Positions 8,400 to 21,716 of a stretch of 53,356 bases of DNA are shown piece after piece. Both the position numbers and the translations under genes were made by a program. The notes beneath the pieces were generated by a model. The model worked only from the letters and a program-made list of their open reading frames with translations, was not told the DNA's origin and searched no databases. The DNA is taken from contig JANXUD010000116.1 of NCBI GenBank assembly GCA_025352045.1, forward strand, positions 1 to 53,356, written 5' to 3'. Each line of letters begins with the position of its first letter. The stretch's first letter is position 1. Origin of the DNA: Gammaproteobacteria bacterium. Lineage in GTDB: Bacteria; Pseudomonadota; Gammaproteobacteria; Xanthomonadales; Xanthomonadaceae.

Positions 8400-9713
8400 T
8401 CAGAACCGTCCGATCGGTTCCTTGTAGCGCAGCATGTCGTAGCCCGTGGTGCCGCTGCCAGTCCGGCAGTGCAGCTTGTAGGGCCTGTTGGCGGCGGAAT
8501 TGGTCTCGCTGTCCTCGACCTCGATGATGGCGCGGCCGTTGGCGCTCTCGCCGTTGGCGCCATTTTGCGTATCGCCCAGGTAGCCGGGGGCTGCTGACGG
8601 CGGCAGGGCGACCGCGTTGTTGCCGCCGCCATAGGTTTCCTCGGCGGGCCCGGCGCTGCGGATTTCCAATCCGTAGGAGGGGTCGGCGCGCAGGCCGGTG
8701 GCCGGGTTGATGATCTCGCAGCTGACGTAGTCGGGGAGGCGGAAGTAAATCACATGCGTGTTGCTGAACACGCCTGGAGGAATCTCGAAGGCCCGGCCGA
8801 GCGCGTCATGGTCGACCAGCACGTCACGGACGGCCAGGATGTCCTTGGCCGACGGCGTCAGGCCCGGGTTGAAGAGCGTGTGCCCGCCGGTCTGCTTGGC
8901 GATGCGGAAGTCGGCACCGAAGCTGGTGTTGTCCTGCACGGTGCAGAAGTTGATCAGCCCGGCCTGGGAAACCGTGGTGAAGTTGATCCGGATCATTCCG
9001 TCGTCGTAGTCCCCGGCAGGGGCCCCGGCGGCGGCGAAGATGTCGAGCAGCCGGGTGAACTGGCCGGGCATCAAGGGAATATCGCCTGCTCCGATCTGGG
9101 ATCCGAACTTGTCGGTTAGCGTGTAATGGACGTTGGTGCTGGCCGGAGTATTCCCGGCATCGAACAGGGGCATGTTGGCGAAGAAGCAGTTGGTCTGGAA
9201 CGACGGCGAACTGGGCGTGGCCGCCAGTCGGCGCAGGCCCACAACGACGAACGCGGCCGAGTTGAACTGGTTCGCCGCGAAGGCCTCCACGCTGAATCCG
9301 TTGCCCTGCGGATTGCTGACCCGCGAGAACCCGGAAAACGTGTTGACACCTGGATTGCCGACGGTCTGGTCGGTCAGCACGAGGAATCCGAACTGCGATC
9401 CCACCGGCAGGGCCGGGCACAGCGCGCGCAGGCTGGTAAAGACCTTCTCGGACGCGAGGTTGATGAAGACGTGCGGGCAGGTGATCGCCACGCCGGTGGT
9501 TCCAGTTGCCGGATAGTAATTGACCCGCAGGTCGATATCGTAGTCGTTGTTGTTCTGCAGGTTGAAGCGCTGCGTGAAGGACGCAGTGTCAACGACCACG
9601 GGGAAGACCTGGATCGAGTGGTAGGCATCGGTGGTCTGTGCGGCCGTGAGCGCGGGCAGGAGGGCGGCGGCGCCGAGCAGGACGCGTGCGGCAATGCGGG
9701 TGAATGTATTCAA
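8400..9713 (-). CDS. Exported protein of unknown function, paralogue 1 of a tandem pair
   Basis: A 437-residue protein with a clear signal peptide (residues 1-25, hydrophobic V-L-L-G-A-A-A-L-L-P-A-L-T ending A-A-Q). It starts at a TTG (9713) preceded by AGGAG at 6-7 bases; no ATG is available. The mature part is rich in Asn, Thr, Phe and Gly, as in secreted beta-sandwich proteins. It has six cysteines (C-P-H-V-F, L-C-P-A-L, N-C-F-F, F-C-T-V-Q-D, S-C-E-I-I-N-P-A-T-G, H-C-R-T-G) placed exactly as in the neighbour at 9766-11067, suggesting three disulfides. The last 16 residues (ending L-R-Y-K-E-P-I-G-R-F) are almost identical in both. I do not recognise a family. Periplasmic or extracellular location is inferred. 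Confidence 0.87.
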   Translation of the reverse strand: MNTFTRIAARVLLGAAALLPALTAAQTTDAYHSIQVFPVVVDTASFTQRFNLQNNNDYDIDLRVNYYPATGTTGVAITCPHVFINLASEKVFTSLRALCPALPVGSQFGFLVLTDQTVGNPGVNTFSGFSRVSNPQGNGFSVEAFAANQFNSAAFVVVGLRRLAATPSSPSFQTNCFFANMPLFDAGNTPASTNVHYTLTDKFGSQIGAGDIPLMPGQFTRLLDIFAAAGAPAGDYDDGMIRINFTTVSQAGLINFCTVQDNTSFGADFRIAKQTGGHTLFNPGLTPSAKDILAVRDVLVDHDALGRAFEIPPGVFSNTHVIYFRLPDYVSCEIINPATGLRADPSYGLEIRSAGPAEETYGGGNNAVALPPSAAPGYLGDTQNGANGESANGRAIIEVEDSETNSAANRPYKLHCRTGSGTTGYDMLRYKEPIGRF

Positions 9714-9765
9714 GGCGTTCTCCTGCCGATCCGTGCCGGCCTCGTGGCGGTTGGGCCGATGGCGG

Positions 9766-11067
9766 TCAGAAACGGCCGATCGGTTCCTTGTAGCGCAGCA
9801 TGTCGAAGCCGGTCGTGCCGCTGCCCGTCTTGCAATGCAGGATGTAGGGTCGCGTTGCCGCCGAATTGGTTTCGTTGTCCTCCACCTCGATGATGGCGCG
9901 GCCATTGGCGCCCTGTTCGCCGTCGTTCTTGTCGCCGGTGTACAGGTAGCCGGTGTCCGGGATGGCCGTGGCGTTGTTGCCGCCGGCGCCGGGTGTTTCG
10001 TCGGGGTCCACGGTGCGCACCTCCAGGCCGTAGGACTGCAGCGCGCGCAGGCCGGTGGCGGGGTTGATCAGCTCGCAGGCCAGGAAATCGTTGCTGTGGT
10101 AGAAAACCACGTGCGTGTTGGAATTCACGCCCGGGCCGATTTCGAACGGCCGGTTCAGCGAATCGTGCGACAGCCAGACGTCGCGGGTGGCGAAGATGTC
10201 CTGGGCGCCGTGGTTGGTGGTCGCGCTCAGCGGCGAGTTGCCGACGAACTGCTTGGCGATGCGGAAGTCGGCGCCGAAGCTGGTGTTGTCCTGGACCGTG
10301 CAGAAGCTCATCAGGCCGGGCAGCTCGGTGCTGGTGGACGTCACGCGCAGGACCATGTCGTTCCAGTCGCCGACCAGGCCCGCCGCGGCGAAGATATCCA
10401 GGATCCGGACGAACTGGCCGGGCACCAGGGGCAGGTCGCCACTGCCGCGCAGGGTCATGACGTTGTCGTAGAGCGCGTAGTGGATGGTGGTCGGCACGTC
10501 CGGCGTGGTGGTGTCGACCTTGGCCAGGTCGGAGAAGAAGCAGTTGGTCTGGTAGGCGGGCGAACCGGCGGTGGCGGAAAGCCGGCGCAGCCCGTGCACT
10601 TCGGACATCGCCGAGGTGAAGGTCGTCAGCGGGAAGGCCTCGACCGAGAACCCGGCGCCGGCCGCGTTGCTGACCCGGGAGTAGGCGGCGAAGGTCAGGG
10701 CGCTGCCGCCGCTCGCGCCGGCACTGAGCAGCTGCAGGTAACCGAACTGGCTGCCCGCCGGCAGGCCGGGGCAGATGGCGCGCAGGCTGGTGAGGGTCCG
10801 GTGGGCGCCCGGGTTGATGAAGATCGTCGGGCAGGCGGTCGCCACGGCGGTGGTGCCGTCCGCGGGGAAGAACTTGGGCGCGATGGTCACCGCGACATCG
10901 TTGTTGTTGCGGAAGTTGAAGCGCTGCACGAACGAGGCGGTGTCCACCACCACCGGGAACACCATCGCCGCGTGGAAACCGTCCGTGCTCTGGGCCTGGG
11001 CGGGGTTGCCGGTCATCCCCAAGACGAGGGCCAGGCAGGGGGCGAGGATCGTGGCGGCGATACGCAT
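9766..11067 (-). CDS. Exported protein of unknown function, paralogue 2 of a tandem pair
   Basis: A 433-residue paralogue of the preceding gene, 52 bp upstream of it on the same strand. The signal peptide is residues 1-26 (A-T-I-L-A-P-C-L-A-L-V-L-G-M, cleavage after A-Q-A). Shared blocks along the whole length include F-P-V-V-V-D-T-A-S-F, L-R-A-I-C-P-G-L, R-I-L-D-I-F-A-A-A-G, S-F-C-T-V-Q-D-N-T-S-F-G-A-D-F, R-I-A-K-Q, E-L-I-N-P-A-T-G-L-R-A and the C-terminal R-A-I-I-E-V-E-D, then E-P-I-G-R-F. All six Cys are conserved. ATG 11067 is followed directly by the signal peptide. Three 10-bp repeats lie 74-103 bp upstream and may control the pair. Confidence 0.87.
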   Translation of the reverse strand: MRIAATILAPCLALVLGMTGNPAQAQSTDGFHAAMVFPVVVDTASFVQRFNFRNNNDVAVTIAPKFFPADGTTAVATACPTIFINPGAHRTLTSLRAICPGLPAGSQFGYLQLLSAGASGGSALTFAAYSRVSNAAGAGFSVEAFPLTTFTSAMSEVHGLRRLSATAGSPAYQTNCFFSDLAKVDTTTPDVPTTIHYALYDNVMTLRGSGDLPLVPGQFVRILDIFAAAGLVGDWNDMVLRVTSTSTELPGLMSFCTVQDNTSFGADFRIAKQFVGNSPLSATTNHGAQDIFATRDVWLSHDSLNRPFEIGPGVNSNTHVVFYHSNDFLACELINPATGLRALQSYGLEVRTVDPDETPGAGGNNATAIPDTGYLYTGDKNDGEQGANGRAIIEVEDNETNSAATRPYILHCKTGSGTTGFDMLRYKEPIGRF

Positions 11068-11170: not shown

Positions 11171-11303
11171 CCCCGCCCGGGCCAACCCCGGGCAGTTTTG
11201 GACGCTGGCGGGCGGTGGTGGTGGAAATGAATCAATGCCAAACGCCATCCCGTTATGTTGGCGAACGCACCGAGCCCTCGGGCCACCCCCGGTAATCTGG
11301 CCG

Positions 11304-11405
11304 CAGATCGAAGGATCGATCGTCGTTACCCCGCCCCTCGGTAACGCTGGTTGGCAAGGAAGCCGACCCCACGCCGCCTGCTAGCCCCAAGCGGCGTTCG
11401 TTTTT
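11304..11405 (+). ncRNA. Structured small RNA, copy B
   Basis: About 100 nt, no credible ORF. A TAATCT box (11293-11298) sits 6-8 nt upstream of the likely 5' end. Elements in order: GATC/GATC mini-hairpin (11306-11309 with 11314-11317); hairpin 1, CGTTACC (11324-11330) pairing perfectly with GGTAACG (11340-11346) around a C-rich loop; hairpin 2, GGTTGGC (11349-11355) with GCCGACC (11362-11368, one G-U) and loop AAGGAA; terminator ACGCCGC (11371-11377) with GCGGCGT (11391-11397) followed by TCGTTTTT (11398-11405). Copy A at about 20884-20980 has the same order of elements and much of the same sequence, with a compensatory pair change in hairpin 1. Sequence upstream (GCGAACG 11261-11267, CCCTCG 11275-11280) is shared too. 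The GGA hexaloop recalls CsrA/RsmA sites and the C-rich loop recalls anti-Shine-Dalgarno sRNAs such as Xanthomonas sX13; the function is inference. Confidence 0.75.
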
Positions 11406-11523: not shown

Positions 11524-14202
11524 ATGCCCCGTCTCCTCGTCTCCGCCATTGCCCTGGCGCTGGCCACGCCCTGCCTGTCGCTCGCCGCCGGGGTCGCCCC
11601 GGCCGCCGCTCCGACCGTCCCCGCCGCCCCCGCTGCTGCCGTTTCCACCGTGACCACGCAGTTGCCGCGCAACGTGCGGCCGACCGCCTACACCGTGGAC
11701 GTCACCCCGCACGCGGACAAGATGGCGTTCGACGGCAAGATCGTGATCGACATCCAGGTACTGGAAGCGAGCCGCGTGATCGTGCTCAACGCGGTGGACA
11801 TGCGCTTCGCCAAGGTGGAATTGCGTGACGCGGCCGGCAAGGTCGTGCGCGCGGCGCCCCAGGTGGTGCTGGACGACGCGGCCCAGACCGCCAGCTTCAG
11901 CTTCGACAGGGACATCGTCCCGGGCGCCTACAAGCTGTCGATGGACTACAGCGGCAAGATCGGCACCCAGGCCAACGGCCTGTTCGCCATCGACTACACC
12001 ACGCCCGCGGGCAAGAAGCGCGCGCTGTTCACCCAGTTCGAGAACTCGGATGCGCGCAAGTTCATCCCGTCCTGGGACGAGCCGGCGTTCCGCACGCCGT
12101 TCTCGCTCAGTGCGACCGTGCCGACCGACCAGATGGCGGTCAGCAACCTGCCGATCATCGATCGCAAGGACCTGGGCAACGGGCTGACCCGCGTGCAGTT
12201 CGGCCAGTCGCCGAAGATGTCCACCTACCTGCTGTTCTTCGCGGTGGGCGAGTTCGAGCGCGACACCCGCTTCAACGGCAAGACCGAGCTCGGCGTGGTG
12301 GCCCAGCGCGGGTCGATCGAGAAGGCGCGCTACGCGCTGGACTCGGCCGACGCCATCCTCACCGAATACAACGACTACTTCGGCGTGCCCTTCCCGCTGC
12401 CCAAGCTCGACAACATCGCCTCGCCCGGCCGCAGCCAGTTCTTCAGCGCGATGGAGAACTGGGGCGCGATCTTCACCTTCGAGAACAGCCTGCTGTTCGA
12501 CCCCGACATCTCCACGGTCGGCGACAGCCAGCGCATCTTCACTACCTCGGCGCACGAGATGGCGCACCAGTGGTTCGGCGACCTGGTGACCATGCAGTGG
12601 TGGGACGACCTGTGGTTGAACGAGGGCTTCGCGTCCTGGATGGAAGGCCGCACGACCCAGAAGCTGCACCCGGAATGGAACAGCGTTCTCAACCGCGTCG
12701 GCGTGCGCGAGTCGGCGATGGGCCAGGACGCCGTCGCCACCACGCATCCCGTTGTCCAGCATGTCGAGACGGTCGAGCAGGCCAGCCAGGCCTTCGATTC
12801 GATCACCTATTCCAAGGGCGAGGCCGTGATCGGCATGCTCGAGGACTATGTCGGCGCCGACACCTGGCGCGAGGGCGTGCGCCGCTACATCAAGGCGCAT
12901 GCCTATTCCAATACCACCACCGACGACCTTTGGCGCGAAGTCGAGGCCGCCGCGGGCAAGCCGATCACCAACATCGCCCACCAGTTCACGCTGCAGCCGG
13001 GCGTGCCGATGATCCGGGTCGAGGCGGCGCGTTGCGTCGGCGGCCAGACGGAACTGCAGTTGTCGCAGGGCGAGTACAGCAAGGACCATCCGGACAAGGC
13101 GCCGCTGTCCTGGGACGTGCCGGTCACCGCGGCCTCCATCGGCGGCGCGCCCGCGCGGACGCTGGTGCAGGGCGGCAAGGGCACGCTGCGCGTTCCCGGC
13201 TGCGGCGCCGTGGTGGTCAACTCGGGACAGAGCGGCTATTACCGCACCCTGTACGCGCCTGCGCAGATCGATGCGCTGCGCAAGGATTTCGCCAAGGTAC
13301 CGGCGATCGACCAGCTGGGCCTGATCAGCGACAACTGGGCGCTCGGCATGGCCGGGCAGGAATCGATCAGCGCGGTGCTGGATTTCATTGCCGCCACGCC
13401 GGTGGATGCCGCGCCGGAAGTCTGGTCGCAGATCGCCGGCAACCTCGGCGGCCTGGACGACATGTTCAAGGGTGACCCGGCGGCGCAGGCGCGCCTGCGC
13501 AAGTTCGCGTCGGCCCGGTTGACGCCCGTGTTCGCGCCGCTCGGCTGGCAGGCCAAGCCGGGCGAGTCGAGCTCGACCACCCTGCTGCGCACCCGCCTGA
13601 TCGGCGCGCTAAGCGGCATGGGCGATGCGCAGGTCGTGGCCGAGGCGCGCCGTCGCTTCGCCGCGCGCAACAGCGACCCGACCGCGATGCCGGCGGCGCT
13701 GCGTCGCACCGTGCTGGGCATCGTCGCGCACAATGCGGACGCGGCGACCTGGGACGAACTGCACCGCATGGCGCAGGCGGAGAAGACCGCGCAGATCCGC
13801 GACGAGTACTACGGCCTGCTGTCCCGCGCCGAGGACGAGAAGCTGGCGCAGCGCGCGCTCGACCTGTCGCTCACCGACGAGCCGGGCGAGACCAACAGCG
13901 CGGGCATGCTGCGTGGCGTGGCCGGCGAGCATCCGGACATGGCCTTCGACTTCGCCATGGCGCACCTGGCCCAGATCGACCCCCGGGTGGATACCACGTC
14001 GCGCAGCCGCTACTACCCCGGCCTTGCCGGCGGCTCGCACGACCCGGCGATGGTCGGCAAGCTCAAGGCCTACGCCGACGCGCACGTGGCCGCGAGTTCG
14101 CGGCGCGCGACCGACAGCACCATCGTCAACATCGAGTACGGGATCAAGGTGCGTCGCGAGCGCCTGCCCCAGGTCGACGCCTGGCTGAAGAAACACGGCT
14201 GA
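11524..14202 (+). CDS. Exported M1 family metallo-aminopeptidase
   Basis: An 892-residue zinc aminopeptidase. Signal peptide 1-24 (L-L-V-S-A-I-A-L-A-L-A-T-P), then an Ala/Pro-rich linker. The substrate-binding motif is the variant S-A-M-E-N (308-312, usually GAMEN). Zinc ligands are in H344-E345-M-A-H348 with E367 eighteen residues on (N-E-G-F-A). The C-terminal ERAP1-like helical region completes the usual length of the puromycin-sensitive/ERAP-type branch. It removes N-terminal residues from peptides, here in the periplasm or outside. ATG 11524 (AAAGG upstream) is chosen because it opens directly on the signal peptide; the frame is open 26 codons further upstream. A REP palindrome follows the stop by 14 bp. 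Confidence 0.93.
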   Translation: MPRLLVSAIALALATPCLSLAAGVAPAAAPTVPAAPAAAVSTVTTQLPRNVRPTAYTVDVTPHADKMAFDGKIVIDIQVLEASRVIVLNAVDMRFAKVELRDAAGKVVRAAPQVVLDDAAQTASFSFDRDIVPGAYKLSMDYSGKIGTQANGLFAIDYTTPAGKKRALFTQFENSDARKFIPSWDEPAFRTPFSLSATVPTDQMAVSNLPIIDRKDLGNGLTRVQFGQSPKMSTYLLFFAVGEFERDTRFNGKTELGVVAQRGSIEKARYALDSADAILTEYNDYFGVPFPLPKLDNIASPGRSQFFSAMENWGAIFTFENSLLFDPDISTVGDSQRIFTTSAHEMAHQWFGDLVTMQWWDDLWLNEGFASWMEGRTTQKLHPEWNSVLNRVGVRESAMGQDAVATTHPVVQHVETVEQASQAFDSITYSKGEAVIGMLEDYVGADTWREGVRRYIKAHAYSNTTTDDLWREVEAAAGKPITNIAHQFTLQPGVPMIRVEAARCVGGQTELQLSQGEYSKDHPDKAPLSWDVPVTAASIGGAPARTLVQGGKGTLRVPGCGAVVVNSGQSGYYRTLYAPAQIDALRKDFAKVPAIDQLGLISDNWALGMAGQESISAVLDFIAATPVDAAPEVWSQIAGNLGGLDDMFKGDPAAQARLRKFASARLTPVFAPLGWQAKPGESSSTTLLRTRLIGALSGMGDAQVVAEARRRFAARNSDPTAMPAALRRTVLGIVAHNADAATWDELHRMAQAEKTAQIRDEYYGLLSRAEDEKLAQRALDLSLTDEPGETNSAGMLRGVAGEHPDMAFDFAMAHLAQIDPRVDTTSRSRYYPGLAGGSHDPAMVGKLKAYADAHVAASSRRATDSTIVNIEYGIKVRRERLPQVDAWLKKHG

Positions 14203-15649: not shown

Positions 15650-16918
15650 ATGGCCCAGGTCGACGGAGCCGTCGCAGATCGTGGCGCTGCACTGATGCGC
15701 CCGCCCCGCATCGGGCGCGCCATCGCCGCGGCCGCCATGGCGCTGCTGCTGGCCGGGAGCGTGGCGGCGCAGTCGCCTGCGAGTGGTGCTCCACCGCAGC
15801 CGCCGCCTGGCTACCCGCCACCGCCCGGGATGCGGCCACCGCCACCGCCCCCTCCGCCGCCGCCACCGCCGATGCAGTCGCAAGCGCAGGGGCAGTTCCA
15901 GGCGCAAACGCAGCCGCAAACGCCCGCGCCGCCGCCCTCGACACCGACGGTCGTCCCGGCCCCGGTGGCAACGCAGGTGGCGCCCGCATCGGCACCGAGG
16001 ACCGTCGCTGCGCCTGCCGCGCCGCCGCCCGCGCCGCAGTCGCCCTGGGGCGCGATGGCGCCGCCGGCGTCGGCCGATGCCACCAGCGGGCCACCGGCGA
16101 GTGTCGCCGCCGAACCCACGCCAATTACATCGACACCGATCGCCCCGACGGCAAGCGCATCAACCGCGGCACGGGACGCTAGCGCCGCGCGCTTTCCACG
16201 CTGGCCCTGGCTGCTTGCCGGCGCCACCGTCGTGCTGCTGCTCGGCTGGATCGCGGCCTCGCGGCGCACCCGCCTGCTGTCGGACGAAACCGAGCGCCTG
16301 TCCCGCCAGCAACGCCAGCTGCGCGCCGAGCACAGCCAACTGCGCGATCGCTCCGAACAGCTGCGCCAGCTGGCCGTGCACGACCCGCTGACCGGCGCCA
16401 TGAACCGCCAGGCCTTCTCGACCGAACTCAATCGCGTGCTGCAACACCTGGCCCGGTTCCGCCGCCCGCTGAACCTGGTGCTGTTCGACATGGACCACTT
16501 CAAGCAGATCAACGACACCCTGGGCCATGCCATCGGTGACGAGGCGCTCAAGCTGGTGGTGGGCGTGGCGCGCGAGCACCTGGACAGCGAAGACCTGTTC
16601 GGGCGGTTCGGCGGCGACGAATTCCTGATTGCCTGTGCGGACCAGCCGATCGAAGCCACGGCGGCGCTGGCCGAAGCCATCCGCCGCGGCGTCTCGGCGG
16701 CAGCCGCGCGGCACCAGCCGCCGCTCGAGGGCCTCGGCCTGAGCATGGGCATCGCCCAAGCCAATGCCGAGCGCGGCTACGACCCGGCGGACCTGTTCCA
16801 GCGCGCCGACACCGCGCTCTACGCCGCCAAGAAGGGCGGCCGCGACCGGGTGCTGCTGGCCGACGATGCCCTGGCTCCGCCCCCGGTGCTCGAGACCGCG
16901 ACGCGTTTCCTGGGCTGA
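15650..16918 (+). CDS. Membrane-anchored diguanylate cyclase (GGDEF)
   Basis: A 422-residue protein that makes cyclic-di-GMP from two GTP. Order: a hydrophobic segment (about 26-43, A-I-A-A-A-A-M-A-L-L-L-A-G-S-V-A), a long Pro/Ala/Gln-rich region (45-180), a transmembrane helix (about 183-203), a coiled-coil linker (E-T-E-R-L-S-R-Q-Q-R-Q-L) and a GGDEF domain. The D-M-D-H-F-K-Q-I-N-D substrate motif and an intact G321-G322-D-E-F325 active loop are present. The inhibitory I-site (RxxD nine residues before GGDEF) reads D-S-E-D, so product inhibition is probably absent. ATG 15650 has GGAG about 10 bases upstream; ATG 15695 is an alternative. Confidence 0.92.
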   Translation: MAQVDGAVADRGAALMRPPRIGRAIAAAAMALLLAGSVAAQSPASGAPPQPPPGYPPPPGMRPPPPPPPPPPPPMQSQAQGQFQAQTQPQTPAPPPSTPTVVPAPVATQVAPASAPRTVAAPAAPPPAPQSPWGAMAPPASADATSGPPASVAAEPTPITSTPIAPTASASTAARDASAARFPRWPWLLAGATVVLLLGWIAASRRTRLLSDETERLSRQQRQLRAEHSQLRDRSEQLRQLAVHDPLTGAMNRQAFSTELNRVLQHLARFRRPLNLVLFDMDHFKQINDTLGHAIGDEALKLVVGVAREHLDSEDLFGRFGGDEFLIACADQPIEATAALAEAIRRGVSAAAARHQPPLEGLGLSMGIAQANAERGYDPADLFQRADTALYAAKKGGRDRVLLADDALAPPPVLETATRFLG

Positions 16919-17032: not shown

Positions 17033-17410
17033 ATGCCTTCCCCCCCGATGCGCGTAGCCCATGTGGACGATGACGCCGACCTGCGCCTGCTGGTCCGCCA
17101 TGTGCTCGAGGCGATCGCCGGCTGTGAAGTCGCGTCCTGCGGGTCCGGCCGCGAGGCCCTGTCGGTGATTCCCGGCTTCCGTCCCGACCTGATCCTCATC
17201 GATGCGCTGATGCCCGACATGGATGGCTTGCAGACGGTGCGCGCGCTGCGCGAACGGATGTCGCTGGACGATGTGTCGGTGGTGTTCGCCACCGGGCTCG
17301 ATGACGAGGACAGCCTGGCGTCCTTGCGCACCGAATCCGATGCCCTGATCGCCAAGCCCTTCGACGCGCTTGCGCTGGCCGGGCGGCTCGGGGAGATCCG
17401 GGGACGCTGA
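17033..17410 (+). CDS. Receiver-domain response regulator
   Basis: A 125-residue single receiver: acidic cluster D12-D13-D14, phospho-acceptor Asp57 in L-I-L-I-D-A-L-M-P-D-M-D-G, switch Thr in V-F-A-T-G, Lys in I-A-K-P-F-D. ATG 17033 has GGAGG five to nine bases upstream. Its stop overlaps the start of the HPt-REC-REC-GGDEF gene (TGATG at 17408-17412), so the two products are made together. A phospho-relay through the neighbour's HPt domain is likely. Confidence 0.92.
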   Translation: MPSPPMRVAHVDDDADLRLLVRHVLEAIAGCEVASCGSGREALSVIPGFRPDLILIDALMPDMDGLQTVRALRERMSLDDVSVVFATGLDDEDSLASLRTESDALIAKPFDALALAGRLGEIRGR

Positions 17411-19077
17411 TGGGCCAGTCGCTGCCAGCCGGCCTCGGCGAACTGCGCGATGGCTTCCTGTTGCGCGCGCGCCTCGATGCCGCCACGCTCGCCACCCTGT
17501 GTTCGGAGGTGCAGAAGGCAGCGGGACCGGGCGCGCAGGCCAGCCTGGCGACCATGTCCAACCTGCTGCATCGCCTGGCCGGCAGCGCCGGCACCTTCGG
17601 GCTCGATCGCCTGGGCCTGCGCGCGCGGCGCCTGGAGCGCCTGTGCCGCATGCTGCAGCAGGGCAGCGACGCCGATTACCCGCTGCGGCTGCAGGCCCTT
17701 TGCGAAGGCCTGCACCAGCTACCGCATGACCTCGACGAAGCGCCCGCCACGCCCCTGCGTCGCGTCGAAGCGCCCGTGGCTCCCGCGCCGATCCACCCGT
17801 CCGAGGAGGAGCCGCGTGAGCAACCCGATGTCCTCCTGGTCGCCGTGCTCGCGATGGAAGACGGCTTCCGCTACAAGCTGCGCCAGGCGCTCGAGGGCTT
17901 CGGCTATGCGGTCGAACTGTTCGACACGCTGGATGCCGTCGCATCGCGCGCGGCGCGACCCGGCCTGTCGGCGATCGTCGCGCGCGTGGATCCCGGCGCG
18001 CTCGCCGGCTCCGCACTGCGACGCCTGCGCGCCGGCGATTCGGACCCGGTGCCGCTGGTGCTGGTGGGGCCGCGCGCCGGATTCGAGGACGCGGTCGCCG
18101 CGGTGCGTGGCGGCGCCGACGGCTACTGCGCGGAGCCCGTGGACCTGCCGCGGCTGGAATCCCGGCTCAACTACCTGATCGAGCGCCGCAGCCGCGACGG
18201 CCTGCGCGTGCTGCTGGTGGACGACGACCGCGACCTGCTCGCCGCCTGCAAGGCCATCCTCGAAAACGTGCACATGGAAGTAGCCACGGTGGATGACCCC
18301 TCGTCAGCGCTCGCAGTGCTTGCCGACTTCCGCCCGGAAGTGGTGGTGATGGACATCCGCATGCCGCAGTGCACGGGCCCCGAACTCGCCCAGGTGATGC
18401 GCCTGGACGACGAGTGGCTGCACGTGCCGATCGTCTACATGTCCAGCCAGAGCGACGGCGCCGACCAGTTGCTGGCCACCGGCAAGGCGGGCGAGGCATT
18501 CCTGGCCAAGCCGATCGACGCGCGCGAGCTGATCGCGACCGTCAGCGCCAATGGCCGCCATGCGCGGCAGATGGTGCAGTCCGCGTCGCGCGATACGCTC
18601 ACCGGGCTGCTCAAGCACAGCTTCATCAAGGAACACCTGGCCGCGGAACTGGAGCGCGCACAACGGCTGCGCGCGCCAACCTGCGCGGTGATGATCGACC
18701 TGGACCATTTCAAGGCCGTCAACGACAAGCATGGCCACCCCGCGGGCGACCTGGTGATCCGCACCCTGGCGGCGCTCCTGCGGCAACGCCTGCGCGTGAT
18801 CGATGGCATCGGACGGCTAGGCGGCGAGGAGTTCCTCTGCGTGTTGTCCAACTGCCCCGCGGTCAAGGGGGCGGGCATCATCGATTCCATCCGCCGGCAT
18901 TTCAACCAGGTCGAGTTCGCCGGCCGCGGTGGGCCCTTCCGCGTCAGCTTCAGCGCCGGCATTTCCGAATCTCGGGGCAGCACGCACAACGCCGCCGAGC
19001 TGGTCTCCGCCGCGGACAAGGCCCTGTACCGGGCCAAGCACGAAGGCCGCGACCGGGTGCTGGTGGCGCGCCCCTGA
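17410..19077 (+). CDS. HPt - pseudo-receiver - receiver - GGDEF response regulator
   Basis: A 555-residue multi-domain protein. An HPt domain comes first, with His54 in L-L-H-R-L-A-G-S-A-G (51-60). A degenerate receiver follows (about 137-255), where the phospho-Asp position is not Asp. Then an intact receiver (about 265-380; D271-D272, Asp315 in V-V-M-D-I-R-M-P, K-P-I-D). Last is a GGDEF domain with G-G-E-E-F (471-475), D-L-D-H-F-K-A-V-N-D, and an I-site R462-V-I-D465 exactly placed, so this cyclase is active and product-inhibited. It is coupled to the receiver gene before it and follows the I-site-lacking cyclase, making a local cyclic-di-GMP control module. The sensor kinase feeding the HPt is elsewhere. 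Confidence 0.93.
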   Translation: MGQSLPAGLGELRDGFLLRARLDAATLATLCSEVQKAAGPGAQASLATMSNLLHRLAGSAGTFGLDRLGLRARRLERLCRMLQQGSDADYPLRLQALCEGLHQLPHDLDEAPATPLRRVEAPVAPAPIHPSEEEPREQPDVLLVAVLAMEDGFRYKLRQALEGFGYAVELFDTLDAVASRAARPGLSAIVARVDPGALAGSALRRLRAGDSDPVPLVLVGPRAGFEDAVAAVRGGADGYCAEPVDLPRLESRLNYLIERRSRDGLRVLLVDDDRDLLAACKAILENVHMEVATVDDPSSALAVLADFRPEVVVMDIRMPQCTGPELAQVMRLDDEWLHVPIVYMSSQSDGADQLLATGKAGEAFLAKPIDARELIATVSANGRHARQMVQSASRDTLTGLLKHSFIKEHLAAELERAQRLRAPTCAVMIDLDHFKAVNDKHGHPAGDLVIRTLAALLRQRLRVIDGIGRLGGEEFLCVLSNCPAVKGAGIIDSIRRHFNQVEFAGRGGPFRVSFSAGISESRGSTHNAAELVSAADKALYRAKHEGRDRVLVARP

Positions 19078-19140
19078 CCCCGGCGCTTGCATGGGCGCGC
19101 GGCGTGGCGGATAACACCGGCTCCGGATGCGGAGACCGCC

Positions 19141-20850
19141 ATGCGCCTGCCGACCTTGCTGACCTCCCTGGCGCTGCTGCTCGCGCTCGCCAGCGCGCCA
19201 TCCCACGCCACCGGACCGGAACATGTCGACGGCCTCGGCAGCCTCGACTTCCCGACCTCGTCGTCCTCGGCGCCGGCGCGCGCTGCCTTCCTGCGCGGCA
19301 TGCTGCTCATGCACGTGTTCGAGTACTCGGATGCCGAACTCGCGTTCCGCAAGGCCGAGGCGCTGGACCCCGGTTTCGCGCTGGCCTATTGGGGCGAGGC
19401 AATGTGCGCCACGCATCCGGTCTGGAACCAGCAGGACATGGAACGCGGGCGCGCGGCCCTGGCCAAGCTCGGCCCGACGGCGGAAGCCCGCGCCGCCAGG
19501 GCGCCGACCGCGCGCGAACGCGCCTACCTGCAAACAGCGGAGTTGCTCTACGGCGAGGGCAGCAAGCTGTCCCGCGACGAGAAGGTTGAACAGGCCTTCG
19601 CGCGCCTGTCCGATGCCTTCCCCGGCGACGACGAAGCCAAGCTGTTCCACGCGCTGTGGCTGCTCGGCCTGGGGCAGGGCGAGCGCCAGGCTGCTCCGTT
19701 CGCGCAGGCGGCCGACATCGCCCGCGCCGTCTACCGGCGCAATCCCGACCATCCCGGCGCGGCGCACTACTGGATCCACGGCATGGACGATCCCGAACAC
19801 GCGACGGGCGCACTCGAAGCGGCGGGCACGCTGGCCAGGATCGCGCCGGACGCCGGCCACGCCCAGCACATGACCGCGCATATCTTCATGGCGCTCGGTC
19901 GCTGGGACGACGTTGTCGCAGCCAACGTCAATGCCGAGCGCGTGGTCCGTGCCCAGTTGAAGGCCGCGGGCAAGCCGGACTATGCCTGCGGTCATTACGC
20001 CGAATGGCTGGAGTATGCCTATTTCCAGCAGGGGCGCGAGCGCGACGGCATGCGCGTGCTGGACGATTGCCTGCGGACCGCGCCGACCGCGATCGCCTGG
20101 TCGCAGGCGCATCCCGACCTGGCGATCGGCTCGGCCAGGACGCCGGCCCTGTTCAAGGCGCGGCTTGACACATCGACGGTTGAGATGCGCGGCACGGCGA
20201 TGATCGAGTCACGCGCGCAGCGGGCAGCCGCGGGGTCACGCGACATCGACCTGTCGGACGTGGGCAGCATGCGTGGCTGGGCGGCATTGGCGCGCGGACT
20301 CCAGCGCGCCGGCGATGGCGATGTCGCGCAGGCGCGGCGCCACCTGGCCGCGCTCGAGGTAGTGCAGGCCGACGCCCGTGCCGACGCGGCGGGCGAGGCG
20401 AAGACCAATACGCAGCTGGCGGTGATGCACGACATGCTCGCCGGTGCGATCGCCCAGGCCGCCGGCGACAAGGCCGGCGCGCGGCGCCTGCTGGAGTCCG
20501 CCGATGCCGCTTGGGACACGCTGCCCTTCGACTTCGGGCCGCCCACCACGTCGAAGCCGGCGCATGAATTGCATGGCGACATCCTGTTGGCGCAAGGCGA
20601 ACCAAGGTCGGCGCTGGCCCAGTACGAGATCGTGCTCAAGGCGGCGCCGCAGCGTCGCCTCGCACTGCGCGGACGTGCAAGGGCGCTGTCCGCGCTCGGC
20701 GATCCGGCCGCGCGGGCGGCGTGGGCCCAATTGGCCGGCGTGCTGTCCCGCGCCGACGCAGGCTTGGCGGACGCCGCGCTGGCAAAGTCCTGCGCCGCCA
20801 GCGGCGCGAAGCTTGTCCAAGAACGCTGCGCCGCCGCCACCGACATGTGA
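19141..20850 (+). CDS. Exported TPR-repeat protein
   Basis: A 569-residue protein with a signal peptide (1-22, L-L-T-S-L-A-L-L-L-A-L-A-S-A). Helical pairs match degenerate tetratricopeptide repeats: A-E-L-A-F-R-K-A-E-A-L-D-P-G-F-A-L-A-Y-W-G-E-A (about 61-85) and later A-R-A-V-Y-R-R-N-P-D-H-P-G-A-A-H-Y. Motifs such as H-Y-W-I-H-G-M-D-D and H-A-Q-H-M-T-A-H-I-F are conserved in this group of exported TPR proteins and include several His. The function is unknown; scaffolding in the periplasm is the usual inference. ATG 19141 opens directly on the signal sequence. The gap after it has no matching plus-strand terminator until 21157-21196. Confidence 0.85.
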   Translation: MRLPTLLTSLALLLALASAPSHATGPEHVDGLGSLDFPTSSSSAPARAAFLRGMLLMHVFEYSDAELAFRKAEALDPGFALAYWGEAMCATHPVWNQQDMERGRAALAKLGPTAEARAARAPTARERAYLQTAELLYGEGSKLSRDEKVEQAFARLSDAFPGDDEAKLFHALWLLGLGQGERQAAPFAQAADIARAVYRRNPDHPGAAHYWIHGMDDPEHATGALEAAGTLARIAPDAGHAQHMTAHIFMALGRWDDVVAANVNAERVVRAQLKAAGKPDYACGHYAEWLEYAYFQQGRERDGMRVLDDCLRTAPTAIAWSQAHPDLAIGSARTPALFKARLDTSTVEMRGTAMIESRAQRAAAGSRDIDLSDVGSMRGWAALARGLQRAGDGDVAQARRHLAALEVVQADARADAAGEAKTNTQLAVMHDMLAGAIAQAAGDKAGARRLLESADAAWDTLPFDFGPPTTSKPAHELHGDILLAQGEPRSALAQYEIVLKAAPQRRLALRGRARALSALGDPAARAAWAQLAGVLSRADAGLADAALAKSCAASGAKLVQERCAAATDM

Positions 20851-20883
20851 GGGCAGGTGGGCACGGAACCCCTGCATTCGCGC

Positions 20884-20980
20884 AAAAAAAAGCCGCCTGG
20901 GCGAGCAGGCGGCGGTTTGTTGGCTTCCATGCCAACTCGCTTCCCTCTGGGAGGAAACGTCCTACGATCATCTTGATCTG
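20884..20980 (-). ncRNA. Structured small RNA, copy A
   Basis: About 97 nt on the minus strand. A TAACCT box (20991-20986) precedes the likely 5' end near 20980. Elements 5' to 3': GATC/GATC mini-hairpin (20978-20975 with 20969-20966); hairpin 1, CGTTTCC (20959-20953) with GGAAGCG (20944-20938, one G-U) around a loop containing TCCC; hairpin 2, GTTGGC (20936-20931) with GCCAAC (20924-20919), loop ATGGAA; terminator GCCGCCTG (20913-20906) with CAGGCGGC (20899-20892) and eight T (20891-20884). Relative to copy B, the fifth pair of hairpin 1 is U-A here and A-U there, so base pairing is selected. The ATG inside gives a short frame without ribosome-binding site that runs through the terminator, so it is not taken as coding. 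Confidence 0.78.
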
Positions 20981-21156
20981 CGCCTAGGTTAGTGCTGGCG
21001 CGCGAGGGTCTCCGTTCGCTTGCGCACACAGCGATCGGCAGATTCTGGCTTGGTTCATGCACCGGCGCCCGGCATCTGCTGCCGACGCAGGTCCCGCGCG
21101 TGCGTCGCACCATCGTCCCTTCCAACAGCGGCGCGCGCGGCCCCGTCCTGGCCGGT

Positions 21157-21332: not shown

Positions 21333-21716
21333 ATGAAGACAAGCAAGAAGACTGCGCCGAAGAAGGCTGCCGCCAAGCCCGCCGCCAAGCCCGCCGCTCC
21401 CAAGCCCATCAAGGAAGCGCTGAGCAAGTCGGGCCTCGTCGCCCACGTGTCGGAGACCAGCGGTGTTGCCGCGCGCGATGTGCGCGCCGTGCTTTCCGCA
21501 CTCGAAGGCGCTGTCGCCAACTCCGTGCACAAGAAGGGCGCCGGATCCTTCACGTTGCCGGGCTTGCTGAAGATCACCGTCGTCAATGTGCCGGCCAAGG
21601 CCAAGCGCAAGGGCATCAACCCGTTCACCAAGGAAGAGCAGTGGTTCGCCGCCAAGCCCGCCTCGGTGAAGGTCAAGGTCCGTCCGCTCAAGAAGCTGAA
21701 GGACGCCGCCGCCTAA
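21333..21716 (+). CDS. HU-like DNA-binding protein with Lys/Ala/Pro-rich N-terminal tail
   Basis: A 127-residue nucleoid protein. Residues 1-25 are a histone-like tail (K-T-S-K-K-T-A-P-K-K-A-A-A-K-P). Residues 26-120 follow the HU/IHF fold: helices with L-V-A-H-V-S-E-T-S-G-V-A-A-R-D-V-R-A-V-L, the G-A-G-S-F-T-L-P-G-L strand, and the DNA-embracing arm with A-K-R-K-G-I-N-P-F-T-K-E-E-Q (HU has R-N-P-x-T-G). HU proteins bind and bend DNA as dimers. The end (V-R-P-L-K-K-L-K-D-A) is basic. A strong terminator at 21770-21795 follows, and the upstream promoter is readable, so it is probably monocistronic. Confidence 0.9.
   Translation: MKTSKKTAPKKAAAKPAAKPAAPKPIKEALSKSGLVAHVSETSGVAARDVRAVLSALEGAVANSVHKKGAGSFTLPGLLKITVVNVPAKAKRKGINPFTKEEQWFAAKPASVKVKVRPLKKLKDAAA

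Follow-up and report, generated by a model that had tools for sequence, protein, structure and literature searches.

Does the window (the whole stretch of 53,356 nucleotides that was analysed) hold genes for structured small RNAs, as a sequence-only reading had proposed, and what might such RNAs do? Our analysis identified two homologous, unannotated small-RNA genes, copy A (20991-20882, minus strand) and copy B (11293-11405, plus strand), which have in common an upstream box, a -10-like TAAYCT element, three hairpins and a terminator. Aligned with about 45 nt of upstream DNA, the two copies are 72.5% identical across ~150 nt, with an alignment score of 146, where 200 shuffles reached no more than 79. 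Both RNAs are predicted to fold more stably than dinucleotide shuffles (z = -3.2 for B and -2.9 for A; -2.1 and -2.5, respectively, with slightly different ends), and the order of the fold is the same in each: a 5' GATC hairpin, a middle hairpin, the GUUGGC hairpin and the terminator. It is very likely that A and B are real small-RNA genes.

Parts of copies A and B

The sequence-only reading had described one order of elements for both copies (TAAYCT, GCAGATC, a GATC/GATC hairpin, a 7- or 8-bp hairpin, the GUUGGC hairpin, CGCCGCCTGCT and a T-run). Direct reading confirmed this order, together with the loop of the GUUGGC hairpin (AAGGAA in B, AUGGAA in A) and the covariation claimed for the middle hairpin, in which B has A-U as the fifth pair and U-A as the third, and A has U-A and U-G at these places. 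The TAAYCT box is likewise present in both copies, but is best read as a -10 element that lies outside the predicted RNA, which places the predicted starts of the RNAs near 11305 (B) and 20979 (A).

In copy B, on the plus strand, the upstream box TGTTGGCGAACGCACCGAG (11256-11274) lies 18 nt 5' of the -10-like element TAATCT (11293-11298), a position and spacing shared by all four copies of the family (A, B, and copies C and D of a related genome, described below). The predicted small RNA spans 11305-11405, with a putative 5' end 7 nt past the -10. Its predicted fold consists of a 5' hairpin, GAUCG-AAGGAU-CGAUC (11306-11321), with the first CsrA-type ANGGAN loop; a middle hairpin, CGUUACC/GGUAACG, with a C-rich loop (11324-11346), for which there is also covariation; the hairpin GGUUGGC-AAGGAA-GCCGACC (11349-11368), which carries the second CsrA-type ANGGAN loop and is the only such hexaloop on a perfect 7-bp stem in the window; and a terminator hairpin with its T-run (11372-11405). 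Both ANGGAN loops were also recovered in the motif count given below.

Copy A is laid out in the same way on the minus strand, with the upstream box TGTGCGCAAGCGAACGGAG (21010-21028) at the shared position and spacing, and the -10-like element TAACCT (20986-20991), read directly, at the same distance from it. The predicted small RNA (20884-20979, putative 5' end) folds into a 5' hairpin, GAUC-AAGAU-GAUC, whose loop has no GGA (20966-20978); a middle hairpin, CGUUUCCU/GGGAAGCG (20938-20959), also marked by covariation; the hairpin GUUGGC-AUGGAA-GCCAAC with a CsrA-type ANGGAN loop, found by both folding and motif count (20919-20936); and a terminator hairpin with a T-run (20884-20913).

Further copies, distribution and covariation

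A DNA search of 61 genomes, the genome of the window (G000) included, gave matches in three genomes with copy A and in one with copy B. The search with copy A found copy C in the related genome G025; the third genome it matched (24 bases, L011) contains an unrelated stretch. A covariance model built from A, B and C (R1) matched copy A at 20882-20991 (115.8 bits) and copy B at 11293-11405 (114.5 bits), both sequences being part of the model. Among 27 genomes of the genus, R1 identified copy D (33.6 bits, E = 6.6e-7), also in G025; the other 25 genomes gave no match at E <=1e-6, with up to 140 candidates scored per genome. In 247 genomes of the family other than G025, with 15 candidates scored per genome, 26 genomes had matches at E <=0.01; apart from A and B, the 26 matches listed all reached at most 30.9 bits, and by eye 26/26 were terminators or unrelated stretches. 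A model R2, run over 40 genomes other than G025 with up to 94 candidates scored per genome, gave matches in 23 of them. Of the 38 R2 matches besides A and B, 28 that were read included no homolog by eye, and one more, of 19 bits (G000:C25), looks coding. Since few candidates per genome were scored with R1 and R2, weak members may escape these searches. An exact GATC-anchored pattern searched in GTDB contigs returned copy C alone, in Gammaproteobacteria bacterium RIFCSPHIGHO2_12_FULL_63_22.

By sequence search, the family is known in two of the 27 genus genomes, with A and B in one and C and D in G025, so that the check for further copies in related genomes was positive but narrow. The two carriers are sisters (support 100/99) in a tree of 27 GacA/UvrY orthologs and E. 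coli UvrY. To judge from these comparisons, the family is real but narrow, with two species and two copies in each as far as the searches reach.

Copies A and C are syntenic orthologs, as a TPR-like gene (its TPR scores are under the Pfam cut-offs), an HU-like gene and a GSDH-type dehydrogenase gene occur in the same order around both; around C, an MBOAT gene sits between the TPR-like gene and the RNA. The dehydrogenases near A and near C are 67% identical. No common neighbours were seen for B and D. At the loci of the GSDH orthologs of two further genomes (G010 and G012), the neighbours are not kept and the best R2 match scored 6.6 bits.

Across the four copies, 93.5% of the cells at paired positions can pair and 9 of 25 pairs are changed on both sides, compared with a mean of 3.1 in shuffles (0/500 reach 9) and with 0 to 3 when the partner is slid; the alignment had been adjusted to the structure model and is empty for D at the pairs of the middle hairpin. 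The middle part of D folds differently, and its middle hairpin does not align with those of A to C. In a sequence-only MAFFT alignment of three copies, read against a hand-written structure, 93.2% of the cells pair and three pairs are changed on both sides, a number reached by 39 of 500 shuffles. The covariation among three copies is thus weaker, and the statistical case depends much on D. RNAalifold recovered the same four hairpins from the three-copy alignment. The proposal of a family of ~100-nt RNAs is therefore supported by the two additional copies, the synteny of A and C, and covariation.

The Rfam comparison also favours the proposal: a scan of the whole window with 4227 Rfam models reached no gathering cut-off, and scans at E <=10 of B, A and the loci of C and D returned none of the Csr/Rsm families (RsmY, RsmX, PrrB/RsmZ, CsrB and CsrC). 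The best weak match was anti-hemB on copy A (E = 0.063), whose 17 bits fall short of the cut-off of 49.5. Our search of the open-licence full-text literature returned no description of an RNA of the A/B type.

Hairpin loops and promoter region

The loop of the third hairpin is AUGGAA in A, AAGGAA in B, AUGGAC in C and AAGGAC in D, that is, ANGGAN in all four copies, each with six bases closed by a C-G pair; the A and the GGA are fixed and the N positions vary, and three pairs of the stem below are changed on both sides in the structure-fitted alignment. According to a review, RsmE binds a hairpin with an ANGGAN loop of six nucleotides, and of 55 CsrA ligands obtained by SELEX, 44 had loops of six bases flanked by AC and GU pairing (PMC7652899). 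In sequence and predicted pairing, the third-hairpin loop fits this published CsrA/RsmE binding hairpin. A second ANGGAN loop is found in the 5' hairpin of B and D, and the 5' loop of A and C has no GGA. In total, the RNAs have three (A), two (B), one (C) and two (D) GGA motifs. The key stem of copy C has an A-C mismatch next to the closing pair, where the predicted fold of C itself differs, and C consequently has no ANGGAN hairpin on a perfect stem in the motif count.

In this count, ANGGAN hexaloops on perfect stems (G-U allowed) were sought on both strands of the 53-kb window. Two have stems of >=6 bp, one in A and one in B, and four have stems of >=5 bp, of which three are in A and B. In 100 shuffles the mean numbers were 1.02 for 6 bp and 2.59 for 5 bp, so the totals of 2 and 4 are no enrichment of the window as a whole, and the argument rests on where the hairpins are located. 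When each RNA was shuffled, 0.08-0.4% of 20,000 shuffles held an ANGGAN hexaloop on a stem of >=5 bp, a figure to be read with the motif having been chosen after the loops were seen and the four copies being related, not independent.

The box TGTGCGNAAGCGMACSGAG is found upstream of every copy, 18 nt before the TAAYCT-like hexamer, with B departing from it more than the others. GCGAACG and CCCTCG had been noted upstream of A and B: the block is common to the copies, but it is longer than was described, and CCCTCG is absent as a conserved motif from C and D. Copies A and C have TAACCT as the hexamer, B has TAATCT and D has GATCCT. The box and the hexamer are conserved at a mean pairwise identity of 0.78 and 0.75, respectively, against 0.38 for the 18-nt spacer between them. 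Inside the box lies an imperfect inverted repeat, GTGCG-N4-CGMAC, with complementarity of 5/5 in D, 4/5 in A and C, and 3/5 in B. Its centre is ~29 nt 5' of the start of the -10, which corresponds to a position near -41, where class II activators bind. A consensus scan found no sigma-70 promoter at copy A or copy B. From its sequence, the A/B promoter looks activator-dependent.

As a search pattern, the promoter region matched in seven of the 27 genus genomes, and its reversed control gave one match, in G025. The five matches outside G000 and G025 have two to three mismatches and, by eye, no such RNA downstream. Across 395 genomes of the family, at least 182 had matches, as did the reversed-pattern controls; many of these matches represent a single recurrent, apparently coding sequence, and none of 8 further places that were read is a homolog.

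The genome has one csrA (84.8 bits, G000:C53), in which L4 and R44 are present, and a GacA/UvrY ortholog, 46% identical to E. coli UvrY (E = 2.6e-55; the runner-up in the genome has 1.8e-25). A strong GacA/UvrY match is present in 27/27 genus genomes and the RNA in 2/27, so that co-occurrence lends no support to GacA control. In E. coli, uvrC follows uvrY; near the ortholog here (L184, L185), uvrC had no match within the stretches read, up to ~5 kb per side. The Pseudomonas GacA box is TGTAAG-N6-CTTACA, from which TGTGCGNAAGCGMACSGAG differs.

A candidate role in CsrA antagonism, and alternatives

Based on the loops and the promoter region, we propose that A and B are likely to encode RNAs of the Csr/Rsm type that stand alone, act in trans and bind CsrA, in competition with its mRNA targets. 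CsrA binding taken alone appears quite likely, and control by GacA is a tentative suggestion. On receipt of a signal, a response regulator, for which GacA is the natural candidate, would bind GTGCG-N4-CGMAC near -41 and activate A and B; transcription would proceed from the -10; the RNAs would bind CsrA (RsmA) through their ANGGAN hexaloop hairpins and keep it off mRNAs; and CsrA repression would be relieved once the RNAs accumulate. With two ideal loops, B could bind one CsrA dimer on both of its faces, and A, with one ideal loop and two other GGAs, would be a weaker partner. B and D, each with two ideal loops, would be the better antagonists; A and C could serve as weaker partners or do something else. 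The single ideal site in A and in C speaks against a CsrA decoy. Further points against it are the low numbers of GGA motifs, the stem mismatch in C, the 5' loops of A and C that have no GGA, the middle hairpin of D that fails to align, the origin of all members in two genomes and the negative sigma-70 scan. In P. fluorescens, RgsA is similarly a 120-nt RNA with an ANGGA motif, although its single ANGGA lies in an unpaired region; it failed to relieve the repression of a gene under RsmA control, and the conclusion drawn was that several GGA motifs are needed (PMC2375449).

A base-pairing small RNA, with or without Hfq, would pair with its mRNAs through a seed either in the C-rich loop of the middle hairpin or in the A[UA]GGA loop, as sX13 of Xanthomonas does through its C-rich loops. 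Like A and B, sX13 has three stable stem-loops, and it differs in loops with CCCC/CCCCC motifs (PMC3771888), which C and D do not have. The middle hairpin does hold CCUCCC in A and CCCCGCCCC in B, but the C-rich loop occurs in A and B only, and there is no Rfam match to sX13, whereas ANGGA is present in 4/4 copies; moreover, one would not expect a base-pairing seed to vary at position 2 and yet hold exactly A, G, G and A constant. This makes a purely base-pairing role quite unlikely. A dual-function RNA, which would combine base-pairing with CsrA binding as proposed for McaS and titrate CsrA only at a high level, seems unlikely too. McaS has few GGA motifs, and the few such motifs here would suit this alternative. 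Both McaS and GadY act by base-pairing and have been proposed as CsrA antagonists (PMC7652899); the likeness of A and B to McaS is one of description, both being small RNAs proposed as CsrA antagonists, and McaS differs as a base-pairing RNA of E. coli. Against dual function, the predicted RNAs are nearly all hairpins, with no conserved unstructured seed region.

If each copy were a cis-acting leader or attenuator, that of B would act on an M1 aminopeptidase gene (likely ATG at 11524), and same-strand frames do follow B, C and D after ~75 to 135 nt (putative starts). These downstream genes are unrelated (M1 peptidase, MBOAT and Fic), which argues for a trans-acting product, and every copy ends in a terminator-like hairpin and T-run of its own. 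Copy A is flanked by a convergent gene, whose end is at 20850, and on its other side by the divergent HU-like gene starting at 21333, so it is no leader; we regard this explanation as very improbable. Even less credible is a mobile or degenerate repeat with a terminator and no regulatory role: two dispersed copies per genome and a narrow distribution would agree with it, but the box-to-start spacing is constant, compensatory changes have occurred, and the synteny of A and C was retained though the adjacent dehydrogenase diverged to the level given above.

The proposed CsrA-binding RNAs would be of a known kind and form a new sequence family. Rsm RNAs are near 100 nt in length with an upstream activator site, and Csr/Rsm systems, as here, have csrA and GacA/UvrY in the genome. 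RsmX/RsmY/RsmZ of Pseudomonas and CsrB/CsrC of enterobacteria are, like A and B, paralogous sets of intergenic RNAs whose hairpin loops contain ANGGA (PMC2375449). Copies A to D differ from them in having no Rfam match and one to three GGA motifs, compared with many in the known RNAs (22 in CsrB; PMC7652899). RsmU of Xanthomonas campestris, which binds RsmA and has three to four GGA motifs, also falls outside the Rfam families; compared by description, it is processed from the 3' UTR of the comEA mRNA and reported in Xanthomonas only (PMC7694677), whereas A and B are separate genes with a promoter-like region. Upstream of A lies the divergent HU-like gene and upstream of B a divergent 433-aa frame with no Pfam match, so that, as far as read, no same-strand mRNA ends just upstream of either.

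CsrA/RsmA orthologs are widespread, and the RNAs that restrain them are described as unknown in several species (PMC5568370); in Xanthomonas, homology searches with known Csr/Rsm RNAs are reported to have found none (PMC7694677). If the proposal is correct, the pair would be a stand-alone set of CsrA antagonists from a new sequence family, the promoter box would provide a handle on the activator, and the RNAs would test the minimum number of binding sites for a CsrA antagonist. A bolder version, which we consider doubtful, is a new family of paired, GacA-switched antagonists in which two ANGGAN hexaloops at a fixed distance clamp one dimer (one RNA per dimer, not a many-site sponge), with an activator box of its own that differs from the GacA box already known. 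In sister species, other RNAs that have gone unrecognised would stand in its place, since RNAs of this sort turn over fast.

Other features were observed in the neighbourhood of the two copies. The HU-like gene next to A (21333-21716, plus strand; Bac_DNA_binding, 50.8 bits) has a Lys/Ala/Pro-rich start, and divergent from B are two adjacent, secreted-looking, similar proteins (8400-9905 and 9766-11067, minus strand) that have FPVVVDTASF in common and no Pfam match. ARAGORN called a 97-nt tRNA-Gly(gcc) at 19798-19894 (minus strand), inside the frame 19087-20850 (plus strand); the frame has a homolog in G025, 55% identical over 474 aa, and the tRNA call is probably false. Between A and B, two plus-strand frames (15650-16918 and 17410-19077) encode GGDEF proteins, one of them an Hpt-REC-GGDEF fusion.
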